In this document: positions 8,201 through 21,295 of the stretch, one piece after another
How the letters are laid out: every line of letters begins with the position of its first letter
Numbering within the stretch: position 1 is the stretch's first letter
DNA from: an uncultured Bacteroidales bacterium
GTDB taxonomy: Bacteria; Bacteroidota; Bacteroidia; Bacteroidales; Paludibacteraceae
Length of the DNA: 36,924 nt
Direction: 5' to 3'
Assembly: GCA_900321605.1 (NCBI GenBank)
Contig: ONWR01000020.1
Location: 1-36,924, forward strand
Notes under the pieces: generated by a model
Told to the model about the DNA's origin: nothing
Database searches by the model: none
What the model saw: the letters and a program-made list of their open reading frames with translations, nothing else
Translations under genes and position numbers: made by a program

Positions 8201-8587
8201 ACGGCGTTTGTTCTTCGCTACGATGATACCGTTCAGACCCACTTTCTCGATGACGGCATTCTGACCGACATGCCCGAAGAGTCCGACGCCGTCCGTAGCT
8301 GCGGCATCAAAACGGTGCAAGCCGGTGATAAGATGTCCGTTGCCGTGGAAAGTACCTTGGAAAGGAAGGGTCTTCGTTCCGATCGGTTTCCAATCAAAAT
8401 TACTCAAGTCAATGTCAGTCTGCAGTTCAATCGTCTGCCCGGCAAAATCCGTGGTGGCGGACTGATTTGCGAGTGCGTAGAGTGCGTCCGCGTCCGCGAC
8501 TATATTAGTCTGCGCGGCGAGCGGGCACGTAAAAAGGCACGCAACAATTAGCGTACCTAAAAAGAATAAGGGTAAGTTTTTCCTCAT
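5255..8587 (-). CDS. T9SS-secreted surface protein with GLUG-like and Ig-like repeats
   Basis: A large secreted or surface protein of 1110 residues. The signal peptide is MRKNLPLFFLGTLIVACLFT and on to about residue 25. Residues about 50-230 contain GLUG-like motifs (GNGHLITGL, GGLVGELTSHGSI, GGIVGRNQGTL), a family found in bacterial adhesins. The middle has repeated Ig/PKD-like strands with YxYQWY patterns. The last ~75 residues form a type A T9SS sorting domain (VYPVPAAAGQPVTVEA, GIYYVQI, KLIVK). The start is placed at the ATG at 8587; an open frame reaching further upstream runs through the tRNA-Leu 3' exon. Substrate or ligand unknown. It starts 30 bases after the tRNA and may be co-transcribed with it. 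Confidence 0.9.
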   Translation of the reverse strand: MRKNLPLFFLGTLIVACLFTCPLAAQTNIVADADALYALANQSATTDFAGQTIELQTDIDLSNFDWKPIGTKTLPFQGTFHGNGHLITGLHRFDAAATDGVGLFGHVGQNAVIEKVGLNGIIVAKNKRRIGVIAGVCDGTIRQCWSMAQTAAAGNMVGGLVGELTSHGSITDCYNTGMILNANDTIGGIVGRNQGTLRRVYNSGYAKNGYAIVGLDQSGTYDDCYYDRKVYYQQPGVEHNEVMPVDVTTSMFSLFANSSVWSTASGRYPILSAFASSDAAKLSAAPMFIDTDWIDPINHANDLTRPFTVSTTGGIVWACQDESAKRWIQISGENVNVVRPCTETDVLVNVTLNGHTRVVYMRPRRLEDFAAGAFYGEKRHFCYNAEGNILSAFVTSTSASYGWTEGDYFYRVELYEIIGNDTVFVQTLCDNLNAGAFTSWLTGYAIPATKAGTFVLRRFAHDEGCVADWIRSDDEFVYRVYEPFDAGAIQNRRDTLYLTTTPLPITISETTPATGGGGTLTYSWLLNGSALPGSNSPSLIYPITEPGSYTFTRMVNDSAECGNSLSDGSYTVVIYYPFDPGIISESSVLSFCNRSAAQEYTLAATSATGGSGVYRYQWYTVNGTDTTAISGATQQNLTLGDIAPLAGQSVLFVRKAEDNTGSTHLTLSTGETTVHVMSELQPGAISDGALPNYCVAYDATGSTMITVSIAETTAATGDPGLEYQWVRLPDGAILATTKDLNYTFPLSEITIGTTYTYIRRVANPGCELVESQGKTTQYYGQGTREEVSVTICDGDLPYTMDWYDQSGNKQTHTFVNDGDTWLVSDITGDCPADTLFTVHTVSVPAFKMDDEASLCQETKTMTLYYEQTSGLSDVFYIRYSADLAKYMGRPDTMGVITTPGAIVFNNMPNIGEGDCYLNVQIGYADQSESGTCFSRSHRMNLYVSLGGYVYSKYDRVVFVDNNPNNGALPGVTDKLEFVAYQWYKNGVKQDGQTGQYYHEDGRELNGVYYVMLTDTKGVRYRSCDVILPKETASSAPQRSAVYPVPAAAGQPVTVEAEGTVLIRSFAGEIIRRAEQVNGSTVINAPYIAGIYYVQITAPDGSVEMHKLIVK

Positions 8588-8667
8588 AATAAAAAGGAAT
8601 TGAGGTGATTGATTAGTACCGCGAGCCGGGGTCGAACCGGCACAGCCATCACTGGCCAAAGGATTTT

Positions 8668-9352
8668 CATACATTCGCTGCCGATCATTCAGCGTCTGCT
8701 TGGACTATGTCTTAACCTTATCCAGAGGACTTAGGTTGTGGGTATATAGTCTCTACACATTTAGGCGTTTCCGCCACTTAGCTCGGCGTTCTGAACATTT
8801 AAAGGCTGTTCCATTCACCGAATTAGCCCACTTCTACTTCAAGCCTTTCGACCTGAGCACTCTTTACCTTTGTTCTTTCCTCGATAATTGTCAGTTAGTG
8901 CGTGACAATTGGGGCACAACAGTTGAAGATTTTCTAATCGTTGGTCATCCCGTATGGCATTGATGTGATGTAACTCCAAAGCAATAGGTTGCCCTAACCA
9001 TTCTGTCAGTCCGCAACATTCGCATTTGTGCTGCTTAATCCCTTCGCGTAACAATCGTTCGCGCAGATGATTTGCGTTAACAAATGTTGAGTGTGCCACC
9101 AAAATCTCACTGAGCGGTTGAGGCTCTCGGAGAGGTTTATACCGTGCTCCTTGGTTCCAACCTTTTCCTGTCATATGAGACGTGTCGAGGTGTAACTCTT
9201 GAATTTTGCGTTTCACAGTGTCGTAGTTGCTACCGGCTACTCGCAAATGTAATTTTCCAATTACTTGCGCGTAAGAATAACTTGTACGTACTGCTTCTAC
9301 AAAATCCTGATCTGTCCATTTTCGTTTACTCATAAACTCCAATGTTTCGTCA
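8668..9352 (-). ncRNA. Group I self-splicing intron in tRNA-Leu(UAA)
   Basis: On the reverse strand P1 forms from exon GACUU plus intron UGA pairing with UUGGAGUU, which puts a U-G wobble at the 5' splice site. The core lies after the HNH frame: a P-like AATTCGGTGAATGG (8811-8824), a Q-like AACGCCGAGC (8781-8790), R GTGTAGAGACTAT (8746-8758) and S AAGACATAGTCC (8702-8713). P7 is GACTAT (8746-8751) with ATAGTC (8703-8708). CGCTG/CAGCG near the 3' end resembles P9. The intron ends in the required terminal G (8668). Subgroup is not assigned. The ORF occupies the space between P1 and the P4 strands. Confidence 0.9.
8839..9333 (-). CDS. HNH homing endonuclease encoded in the group I intron
   Basis: A 164-residue putative homing endonuclease. 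It would cut intronless tRNA-Leu alleles and so spread the intron. The N-terminal half is a helical DNA-binding region (KWTDQDFVEAVRTSYSYAQV, then GSNYDTVKRKIQEL and LDTSHMTGKGWNQGARY). The C-terminal half is a zinc-supported HNH domain with CECCG, LELHHINAIRDDQRLENLQL and CPNCH. The ATG at 9333 lies just after P1. A TTG at 9342 inside P1 is the only earlier option and is less likely. The stop precedes the catalytic core, so the ORF sits in a peripheral loop. It has no promoter of its own and would be expressed from the tRNA precursor. Confidence 0.9.
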   Translation of the reverse strand: MSKRKWTDQDFVEAVRTSYSYAQVIGKLHLRVAGSNYDTVKRKIQELHLDTSHMTGKGWNQGARYKPLREPQPLSEILVAHSTFVNANHLRERLLREGIKQHKCECCGLTEWLGQPIALELHHINAIRDDQRLENLQLLCPNCHALTDNYRGKNKGKECSGRKA

Positions 9353-9389
9353 AAGTCCTTCGTGTCTACCTATTCCACCATCGCGGCAT

Positions 9390-9407
9390 CGTTTGGCGCT
9401 CCAAACG
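9390..9407 (-). other. Perfect 7-bp hairpin in the tRNA-Leu 5' leader
   Basis: CGTTTGG and CCAAACG flank a four-base loop. It lies two bases upstream of the mature tRNA 5' end and about 20 bases downstream of the promoter. It may be a processing or stability element. The plus-strand loop CGCT is also found in the hairpin at 14253-14270. Confidence 0.6.
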
Positions 9408-9429
9408 GGGTAGATTTCAAAATCGGCTG

Positions 9430-9460
9430 CAAAGGTACAACAAAAATTTCACATATGCAA
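9430..9460 (-). promoter_or_regulatory. Bacteroidota-type promoter of tRNA-Leu
   Basis: Reverse strand: TTGCATATGT (9451-9460), then TACCTTTG (9430-9437), with 20 bases between TTG and the -7 element. It points at the tRNA gene 43 bases downstream. Confidence 0.8.
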
Positions 9461-19573: not shown

Positions 19574-21295
19574 ATGGAAGTTGAGGAAAAAAGTCTCAAT
19601 TTTATTGAGCAAATAGTACAAAAAGACCTTGCAGAGGGAGTGAACGGTGGACGTATTCAGACGCGTTTCCCGCCTGAGCCGAACGGATACCTGCATATCG
19701 GACACGTCAAGGCGATATGTATGGACTTCGGTATTGCCGAGAAATACAACGGTGTTTGTAATCTCCGTTTTGACGACACGAACCCTGCCAAGGAGGATAC
19801 CGAATACGTAGAGACCATTGAGCGCGATATTCGTTGGCTTGGTTTCAAATGGGGACATATTTTCTATGCCTCCGATTATTTCCAGCAGCTCTATGACCTC
19901 GCTATCCGTTTCATCAAAGAAGGCAAAGCCTATGTGGATGAACAGACAGCCGAGCAGATTGCGGAGCAGAAAGGTACGCCGACCGAGCCCGGTGTGGCTT
20001 CGCCTTACCGTGATCGTCCGATCGAGGAGAACCTGCGTCTCTTCGAGGCAATGCAACGGGGCGAGATAGAGGAAGGCAAGATGGTTCTGCGTGCGAAGAT
20101 CGACATGGCAAACCCCAACATGCATTTCCGTGATCCGATCATGTATCGTATCATCACCTCGCATCCGCATCATCGTACCGGACACACATGGAACGTCTAT
20201 CCGATGTATGACTTTGCGCATGGACAATCCGATTATTTCGAAGGCGTGACGCACTCGATCTGTACGCTTGAGTTCGAGGTGCATCGTCCGTTGTACGACT
20301 ATTTCATCGACCAGTTCAGCGGAGCTAATTTCTGCGGATTGAGTCCTTATGGTCCCGACTATCGTCCCAAACAGCGTGAGTTCAACCGACTCAACATCAC
20401 TTATACCGTCATGTCGAAGCGTAAGATGTTGCAGCTCGTCAAGGAAGGTCTGGTGGCAGGCTGGGATGATCCGCGTATGCCGACCGTCTGTGGTTTGCGT
20501 CGTCGTGGATATACGCCGACTGCTATCCGCAATTTCATGGATCGTATTGGTTATACCAAAGTAGAGGGAATGATTGACCAAGGTCTGTTGGAGCATACTA
20601 TCCGTGAGGATCTCAAGGAGACAGCTCCGCGTGTATGCGCTATCTTCGATCCTGTGAAGTTGGTTATCACCAACTATGAGGGCGAAGGCGAAACCATTAC
20701 CGCAGAGAATATCGACGGACACGAGGAGCTCGGTACGCGTGAGATCCGTTTTGGTCGTGAGCTGTGGATTGAACGTGGTGACTTCCTCGAAGAGGCGGAT
20801 AATAAGTTCTACCGTCTCTCTCCCGGTGGTCGCGAGGTGCGTCTGAAGAGCAGTTATATCATTCAGGCAACCGGTTGCGAGAAGGATGCAGAAGGAAAGC
20901 TCACTACCGTCTATGCAACGTATGATCCGAACTCCAAGTCGGGCACAGAAGGCGGTAACCGCAAGACCAAAGCGACTATCAACTGGGTAGAATGCGATAC
21001 CTGTCTCGATGCTGAGGTACGTATGTACGACCGTCTCTTTGCTTGCGAGAACCCGAGTGCTGAGGAAGGTGACTTCCGTGATCTGCTCAACCCCGAAAGC
21101 CTCAAGGTGGTGACTGCCAAAGTGGAAGGTTCGCTGCGCAGCGAGTTGCACGAGCCGGTTCTGGTCGATGGTATCGAGCAGGAGAACCACTACCAGTTGC
21201 TCAAACAAGGTTACTTCGTGGTTGATCCGGACACTACCGCTGACAAACTGGTTCTCAACCGTACTTGCTCCCTCAAGGATAACTACTTGAAATAA
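19574..21295 (+). CDS. glnS: Glutaminyl-tRNA synthetase
   Basis: Class I aminoacyl-tRNA synthetase charging tRNA-Gln with glutamine. The HIGH motif is in RFPPEPNGYLHIGHVKAI and the KMSKS-like motif in TYTVMSKRKM. NLRFDDTNPAKED is the GlnRS signature after the first helix. The C-terminal anticodon-binding beta-barrels follow (about 340-570). The ATG at 19574 (MEVEEKSLNF) is preferred; a TTG seven codons earlier is possible. Length of 573 residues fits. It lies 35 bases after lpxA and probably continues that transcript. A very long antisense open frame is a coding shadow. Confidence 0.96.
   Translation: MEVEEKSLNFIEQIVQKDLAEGVNGGRIQTRFPPEPNGYLHIGHVKAICMDFGIAEKYNGVCNLRFDDTNPAKEDTEYVETIERDIRWLGFKWGHIFYASDYFQQLYDLAIRFIKEGKAYVDEQTAEQIAEQKGTPTEPGVASPYRDRPIEENLRLFEAMQRGEIEEGKMVLRAKIDMANPNMHFRDPIMYRIITSHPHHRTGHTWNVYPMYDFAHGQSDYFEGVTHSICTLEFEVHRPLYDYFIDQFSGANFCGLSPYGPDYRPKQREFNRLNITYTVMSKRKMLQLVKEGLVAGWDDPRMPTVCGLRRRGYTPTAIRNFMDRIGYTKVEGMIDQGLLEHTIREDLKETAPRVCAIFDPVKLVITNYEGEGETITAENIDGHEELGTREIRFGRELWIERGDFLEEADNKFYRLSPGGREVRLKSSYIIQATGCEKDAEGKLTTVYATYDPNSKSGTEGGNRKTKATINWVECDTCLDAEVRMYDRLFACENPSAEEGDFRDLLNPESLKVVTAKVEGSLRSELHEPVLVDGIEQENHYQLLKQGYFVVDPDTTADKLVLNRTCSLKDNYLK

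Follow-up and report, generated by a model that had tools for sequence, protein, structure and literature searches.

A composite group I intron with an HNH endonuclease gene in the tRNA-Leu(UAA) gene of a Bacteroidales bacterium, and its relatives in phages

The tRNA-Leu(UAA) genes of cyanobacteria and plastids contain group IC3 introns inserted between U34 and A35 of the anticodon, and vertical inheritance has often been argued for them. To our knowledge, these introns lack an open reading frame (ORF). The tRNA-fMet intron of Synechocystis reportedly encodes I-Ssp6803I, an enzyme said to be specific for the tRNA anticodon region; I-Ssp6803I belongs to the PD-(D/E)XK class. Among phage enzymes, SegB is a GIY-YIG endonuclease and the intron of I-HmuI sits in a DNA polymerase gene. 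We analyzed a contig of 36,924 nucleotides (nt) from an uncultured Bacteroidales gut bacterium of the Paludibacteraceae (ONWR01000020.1, assembly GCA_900321605.1), henceforth referred to as the window. At 9387-8617 on its reverse strand, a tRNA-Leu(UAA) gene is interrupted at U34|A35 by a 685-nt group I intron that carries an HNH endonuclease gene. The insertion lies at the position that marks the cyanobacterial lineage and in the same gene as the cyanobacterial and plastid introns, whereas in the window the loop of P1 (L1) is occupied by an HNH gene. As with I-Ssp6803I, the endonuclease is encoded in an intron at a tRNA anticodon, but the enzyme class and the tRNA differ. The intron is real, recently mobile and of a phage kind.

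I-HmuI and I-PfoP3I are known as HNH enzymes encoded in group I introns of phage genes, as here; their host genes are DNA polymerase genes. Collaborative homing in phages has been proposed as a route to composite introns (PMC3984707). That review deals with two phages, whereas in our dataset the stages can be found together, at a tRNA site, within a single HNH family. Also unlike the case reviewed there, the HNH gene is inserted in L1 and in L6, occurs in both orientations and has entered bacterial chromosomes. SegB of T-even phages is described as an endonuclease whose free gene lies among arrayed tRNAs and which cleaves inside tRNA genes (PMC13096335). It shares the tRNA-array setting with our HNH family, but it belongs to another family, is free-standing, and no isotype preference is reported for it. 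Section 11 of the collaborative homing review places all phage introns known by 2014 in protein-coding genes, despite the many tRNA genes of phages (PMC3984707). Group I introns have been described in core phage genes of crAss-like phages, and we found no mention of introns in the tRNA genes of these phages in the available text of that paper (PMC7886860). Among the open-access papers listed in our searches, preprints excluded and to the extent that their texts were available, we found no report of group I introns in phage tRNA genes and none of an HNH-bearing tRNA-Leu intron in Bacteroidales. A group I intron with a homing gene is of a known kind. The apparent novelty is an HNH family linked to tRNA-Leu(UAA) and common to phages and hosts, with stages of intron assembly side by side and repeated exchange of the ribozyme core. 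We consider it likely that this is a phage-borne homing system aimed at tRNA-Leu(UAA) that repeatedly builds composite introns and invades Bacteroidales chromosomes.

The exons, the intron and its gene are arranged as follows.
9353..9387, reverse strand: 5' exon of tRNA-Leu(UAA), ending in GGACUU (U34); the same sequence is found in an empty-site relative (L003)
8617..8667, reverse strand: 3' exon of tRNA-Leu(UAA), starting with AAAAUCC (A35) and finishing at discriminator A73
8668..9352, reverse strand: group I intron of 685 nt with a terminal G, recognized by RF00028 and R1 matches and by covariation
8839..9333, reverse strand: HNH endonuclease ORF with an ATG start, 164 amino acids and a TGA stop, in L1

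A reading made from the sequence alone (henceforth the sequence-only reading) had proposed that the two exons form a complete leucine tRNA(UAA) broken at U34|A35. The exon boundaries agree with this, and ARAGORN called the exons, once joined by script, as a tRNA-Leu with anticodon TAA; run without introns on the window, it called no tRNA. We looked for a second intact tRNA-Leu(UAA) gene in the same genome (64 contigs, 94.9% complete) and found none, these exons being the sole matches to the joined tRNA at E ≤ 0.001. The group I assignment held as well. The Rfam model RF00028 matched 8914..8681 on the reverse strand over its full length (35.6 bits, E 2.9e-7, below the curated gathering score of 50). 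It was the sole family detected up to E 10 in 8550-9450, and its match in this genome is restricted to this locus. We also built a covariance model, R1, from 15 introns including that of the window, which it scores at 182.9 bits (8863..8699), a circular result since the window is in the training set.

The proposed HNH gene was borne out by PF01844, which matched the ORF with 25.8 bits (cut-off 21.4), and by a match to phrog_10822 at 1.3e-47; the gene occurs once in the genome. Residues C104, C107, H123, N135, C140, C143 and H144 are invariant across 26 sequences (L232 and L256 were left out of the structure alignment), in roles that we presume from other HNH enzymes. With a domain above the curated cut-off and the motif residues kept, the predicted protein classifies as a putative HNH homing endonuclease. 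Its AlphaFold2 model (mean predicted local distance difference test score 86.9, predicted template modeling score 0.55) has helices in the N-terminal part and the HNH part last. A Foldseek search with this model returned nothing at E ≤ 0.001, and solved chains resemble the family weakly (EcoKMcrA, E 0.04).

The sequence-only reading also described a P1 helix with a U-G pair at the splice site. The U-G pair is there, as U(-1)-G8862, but the internal guide is GAGU within the 3' end of the HNH gene and not GGAG (9340..9337) by the start codon, which the reading probably had in view. GGAG was ruled out as it is missing in seven loci (L034-L038, L040 and L041). The guide and the helices of the core are listed below.
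9337..9340, reverse strand: GGAG ahead of the HNH start codon, Shine-Dalgarno-like and distinct from the P1 guide
8859..8862, reverse strand: GAGU internal guide (3' strand of P1), inside the HNH frame at its 3' end, with no variation among the 11 rows
8839..8856, reverse strand: P2 hairpin with a GAAA loop, 5 of 7 pairs changed on both sides, overlapping the last HNH codons and the stop
8827..8831, reverse strand: 5' strand of P3, partner 8742..8738, 100% paired, double changes in 2 of 5 pairs
8817..8822, reverse strand: 5' strand of P4 (UUCGGU), partner GCCGAG at 8787..8782, 98.5% paired, zero double changes
8746..8751, reverse strand: 5' strand of P7 (GACUAU), partner AUAGUC at 8708..8703, invariant

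GAGU pairs with ACUU of the 5' exon. The covariation alignment runs from the guide to the 3' end of the intron in 11 window-type introns, eight bacterial and three from phages (L045, L118 and L159); loci and genomes are given by our own L and G numbers. GAGUGC is invariant in all 11 rows, with the covarying P2 directly after it, and the last HNH codons (E-C of KECSGRKA) double as guide and P2. Because the conserved guide lies so late in the HNH gene, the gene fills L1 and overlaps P2. The guide is retained where the HNH gene is mostly or wholly gone (L042, L043 and L296, the last in G466). P1 itself shows no covariation, both strands being invariant. Across P2-P9, 97.7% of 484 cells are paired, compared with 84.6% in shuffled alignments, and 20 of 45 pairs show changes on both sides in at least one sequence, compared with 8.9 in shuffles. 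None of 500 shuffles was as high on any of five measures, and pairing fell to 28-38% when partners were slid. RNAalifold unaided recovered 47 pairs, 18 of them with double changes. Double changes occur in P2, P3, P5, P6, P8 and P9, while P4 varies on one side in one pair and P7 is invariant; since neither P4 nor P7 has a double change, these two helices rest on fit rather than covariation. The intron has a P3-P8 core with the P3/P7 pseudoknot, supported by covariation, together with U-G at the 5' splice site and G as its last base, all as in group I introns. P7 and the terminal G had both been noticed in the sequence-only reading. No extra helix between P3 and P7 was seen in the sequence, and an early assignment to subgroup IA was dropped because such helices are absent. 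We also abandoned the idea that the cores of L045 and L046 belong to different subgroups; they are different clades of alike cores.

Within the genus, R1 matched 24 of 178 genomes, including 13 of the 68 good ones. In the sample of the order, strict filters left matches in 3 of 393 genomes: the genome of the window, one further member of the genus and a tRNA-Ile case (L281). RF00028 over 295 order genomes gave the same three and one match taken as false; L332 (27.7 bits with RF00028) was dropped because it lies in a protein gene read by eye as sufB-like. All 24 matches in the genus sit in a tRNA-Leu(UAA), and 22 are complete introns in the usual gene, the others being L287, which is truncated by a contig end with the 3' exon present, and L300. 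The HNH frame is full in 10 of the 22 (L279, L282, L283, L285, L286, L288, L291, L293, L297 and L298), open with an unclear start in two (L301 and L302) and eroded in 10. Among the eroded copies, L284 has a stop and L292 a frameshift, L289, L295 and L299 are partly deleted, L280, L290, L294 and L296 have lost nearly all of the HNH gene, and L303 is a degraded copy of a second type. Relatives with empty sites (L003 and L004) have exons identical to those of the window and share a downstream gene with it (68.8% over 921 nt and 68.5% over 746 nt). The full homing cycle is present within this one genus.

The introns of G501 and G479 are 99.3% identical over 690 nt, with full HNH genes in both, whereas rpoB identity between these genomes is 75.1% across 3270 nt. 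In the flanks, identity is 93% and 90% within the closest 60 nt and 76% and 53% when 400 nt are compared, and G004, the rpoB sister of G501, has an empty site (L013). We obtained rpoB from 25 of 30 genomes queried; the rpoB tree was not used for G034 and G032, which enter only as pairwise identities. Patchy presence among relatives, combined with sharing at odds with host divergence, marks this as a mobile intron. Three further loci were observed in Bacteroidales. An ORF-less group I intron lies in a different tRNA-Leu(UAA) of G027 (L300, ~1490-1810), a bin with 7% contamination that also has an intact UAA gene. In another Bacteroidales family, a group I intron occupies 34|35 of a tRNA-Ile(UAU) within a phage-like tRNA array (L281, ~1445-1740). 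A Bacteroidales bin contains a free HNH gene that is 79% identical, with no core seen (L039, 1501-2104); it adjoins, at the contig end, an apparent 3' portion of an oppositely oriented tRNA.

We collected viral HNH loci from IMG/VR (in one scan the best 80 of at least 509) and from 7 of 116 INPHARED records, and sorted them by tRNA context, 14 of them by hand (L118, L152, L189, L191, L240, L247, L251, L254, L255, L259, L264, L265, L267 and L268). Fetched by HNH similarity alone, 60 of 65 viral representatives are tied to a UAA tRNA. The HNH gene stands free beside an intact tRNA-Leu(UAA) in 33 of the 65 and free beside a UAA tRNA with an ORF-less intron in 15 (the intron being ~200 nt where both ends were found), and it lies inside a UAA-tRNA intron in 12, twice antisense. 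Five have other contexts (L229, L244, L253, L272 and L278). Among the 45 representatives in the free-beside-intact and other classes, 36 have at least two tRNAs in the locus, and in 28 of these the nearest tRNA is UAA (9.5 expected, p ≤ 5e-6). Intron-encoded copies occupy L1 (for example L045, L046, L201, L206, L228, L270 and L277; antisense in L049) or L6 (L192, L233, L100 and L129; antisense in L260 and L072), the loop having been assigned in L072, L100, L129 and L192 by reading P and Q by eye. Of 45 group I cases tested, 44 yielded a tRNA call once the exons were joined, 43 as Leu(UAA) and one as Ile(UAU), with L201 not called. Phage L045 has an intron at the same site, with a core of the same clade and an HNH protein 72% identical to that of the window; an alternative genetic code for this phage was not supported (2, 3 and 3 frames of at least 200 amino acids in 13.3 kb).

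Trees of the HNH proteins were built from loci with >100 aligned residues (110 of 118 loci, 90 representatives); a second tree excluded the long or odd sequences L194-L197, L253 and L278, as well as L033 and L037. In the 90-protein tree, the starred branches force at least 10 changes for the state of lying inside an intron on the same strand. Grouping all intron-encoded HNH rows into a single clade is rejected by the approximately unbiased (AU) test (p 0.0006), and so are single clades of the six L6 rows (p 0.0005) and of the free rows beside introned tRNAs (p 0.0003), so that HNH genes have repeatedly entered introns or departed from them. The main Bacteroidales HNH rows form one branch with the free-standing L039 (branch values 98/88), which groups in turn with phage loci L045, L046 and L191 (100/100). 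The HNHs of L301 and L302 group instead with phage L223 (99/88), and a single clade of all 12 bacterial rows is rejected (AU p 0.0005). For the cores, too, L301, L302 and L223 form a group (100/100). These sequence comparisons indicate that the genus received a further and distinct intron with its HNH at this site, which makes at least two invasions. The sequence-only reading had asked whether independent homing to one site or transfer from another lineage was at work, and this is answered in part: the HNH and the core of the window fall among same-site phage sequences, and the genus was invaded more than once. Window-type cores form a clade with L045, L118 and L159 (100/99), while resolution is poor deeper in the core tree (4 of 31 branches starred). 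A core clade of the bacteria with L045 and L046 is rejected (p 9e-5), as is an HNH clade of the bacteria with L045 and L118 (p 0.011); given this conflict between the two trees, HNH genes were exchanged between cores.

These results suggest the following course of events. The locus is a mobile group I intron of composite make, lodged in a tRNA-Leu(UAA) gene of the chromosome, and the pre-tRNA would self-splice via the ACUU/GAGU pairing of P1. The HNH protein would cleave or nick tRNA-Leu(UAA) genes that have no intron, at the anticodon loop, and their repair would then copy the intron and the HNH gene into them. Phages maintain this HNH family in or next to tRNA-Leu(UAA) genes of their own, and such phages are the most likely source from which the genus obtained intron and HNH, on two or more occasions at one and the same nucleotide. 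Once installed, the HNH gene decays, with the ribozyme parts kept, including the guide within the old reading frame.

We weighed this phage-borne homing system against three other explanations. The intron could be an old one, inherited vertically in this lineage, with the HNH gene randomly lost or kept and the phage copies taken from hosts. The single branch of the main Bacteroidales HNH rows is compatible with this, as are G022 and G514, whose introns and upstream flanks are 96.8% and 95.0% alike. However, there is no R1 match in 154 of the 178 genus genomes (some of which are incomplete, and the filters strict), and one of the three matches in the order is the tRNA-Ile case in a phage-like array. 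Near-identical introns in hosts with rpoB at 75%, the two different introns at one site and an HNH diversity that is, as far as found, mostly phage also fit vertical descent poorly, and we regard it as very improbable. A shade less probable again is a dead intron in a broken tRNA gene, with UUA codons read by another tRNA. RF00028 reaching 35.6 bits only and a phage tRNA (L191) split by an HNH gene with no core seen could be taken that way, but one UAA gene was found in an assembly that is nearly complete, the core is retained even after HNH loss, and joined exons were called as tRNAs in all but one of the tested group I cases. HNH genes might also gather in phage tRNA arrays for general reasons, the UAA link being a by-product and this site no target. 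Members beside tRNA-Asn, Glu/Gly and Leu(CAA) would be expected then, and SegB is reported to be tied to tRNAs without isotype preference (PMC13096335). The excess of UAA as the nearest tRNA speaks against such a by-product, and HNH genes inside introns at one site, in two loops and in both orientations, are hard to explain without targeting; we hold this explanation to be improbable, if somewhat less so than the other two.

Several observations weigh against the phage-borne homing system that we prefer. The window has no match to RF00028 at the gathering score. G501 is 5% contaminated and its host label could be a binning error, although the contrast between intron and flanks stands without the bin and is not affected. 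The nearest tRNA is not UAA in 8 of the 36 representatives (in four of these it is another tRNA-Leu), and members occur in or beside tRNA-Leu(CAA), Asn and Glu/Gly (L071, L194, L195, L196 and L278), so that the link to the UAA site is not absolute. An HNH clade of the bacteria with L045, as opposed to L046, L191 and L039, is not rejected (p 0.073), and the sister phage is not singled out. The direction of transfer from phage to host, which we infer, depends on nesting in midpoint-rooted trees. On the homing reading, one HNH family displays, as natural variants, the proposed stages in the making of a mobile intron, and one bacterial genus offers two separate captures at one nucleotide. The movement of tRNA-Leu introns and the joining of ribozyme and endonuclease can now be assayed with a 164-residue enzyme and an 86-nt tRNA target. 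This suggests how such introns assemble and pass between viruses and hosts.

The phage loci included several variant arrangements. In Dulem virus 42, a tRNA-Leu(UAA) is split by an HNH gene and no ribozyme core was seen (L191, 1404-2021). As this locus keeps the HNH gene and shows no core, its tRNA looks broken. The nearest INPHARED relatives of the gene beside that tRNA are cr-series phages, of which cr126_1 is labelled Crassvirales, and a Bohxovirus, and L046 looks syntenic with L191 by eye. The crAss-like phages are reported to infect Bacteroidetes (PMC7886860). A 1014-nt intron of a phage tRNA-Leu has the HNH gene in L1 and, between R and S, a further reading frame (L201, 1395-2409). At U34|A35 of another phage UAA tRNA lies a tRNA-like sequence with a CCA end, a tRNA inside a tRNA (L253, ~1302-1372; RF00005 26.9 bits, E 0.0012, below the gathering score of 29), with an HNH gene of the same family downstream. 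In eight loci (L240, L251, L254, L255, L259, L264, L265 and L267), a UAA tRNA with a short variable arm and an ORF-less intron stands beside the HNH gene; the five of these that were tested are 73-75 nt when joined and were called Leu. A UAA-like tRNA-Leu with an anticodon-loop insert of ~80 nt has no group I core visible by eye (L229, ~1190-1310).

To look beyond the HNH family, we searched viral sequences with a core pattern taken from this tRNA intron and obtained at least 120 loci, not dereplicated. Of the 120 listed, 71 are in split tRNAs with 16 anticodon labels, 22 of them Leu(UAA), and the controls gave 0 of 120 on the other strand and 0 of 120 in block shuffles. We note that the ARAGORN anticodon label can be off when introns are present, since most bacterial Leu introns were called Phe. 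One locus, L238, has a free HNH gene beside an ORF-less intron, and a gene adjoining the HNH has 80 INPHARED matches, each in a record whose name refers to Synechococcus, Prochlorococcus, cyanophage or marine virus. The L238 exons resemble the tRNA-Leu of listed cyanophages at 93-97%, for example that of S-TIM5, where they are contiguous with no intron. A 735-kb phage and a Bradyrhizobium plasmid likewise have ORF-less introns with a like core in tRNA-Leu(UAA). The UUGAG guide and core of the ORF-less phage introns look, presumably, like those of the cyanobacterial and plastid introns. Because cyanophage-like phages carry ORF-less introns at this site with the HNH gene next door, one may speculate that a phage-borne HNH family aimed at the UAA anticodon is a general engine that assembles and spreads tRNA-Leu(UAA) introns, and that the ORF-less cyanobacterial and plastid intron, supposedly ancestral, is a fixed relic of phage collaborative homing; we think this rather unlikely. 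The core DNA of the window itself had no match in INPHARED or PLSDB. Like introns were observed in the tRNA-Leu(UAA) of the Bradyrhizobium plasmid (L334, 822-1111) and, on a Salmonella IncI-gamma/K1 plasmid, in a split tRNA (L335, 786-1084), and 1268 PLSDB records in all match like introns. A stretch of Pelagibacter phage HTVC120P under a capsid annotation (H81, 19653-19807) is 75% like the L238 intron and is perhaps the same core in a protein gene.
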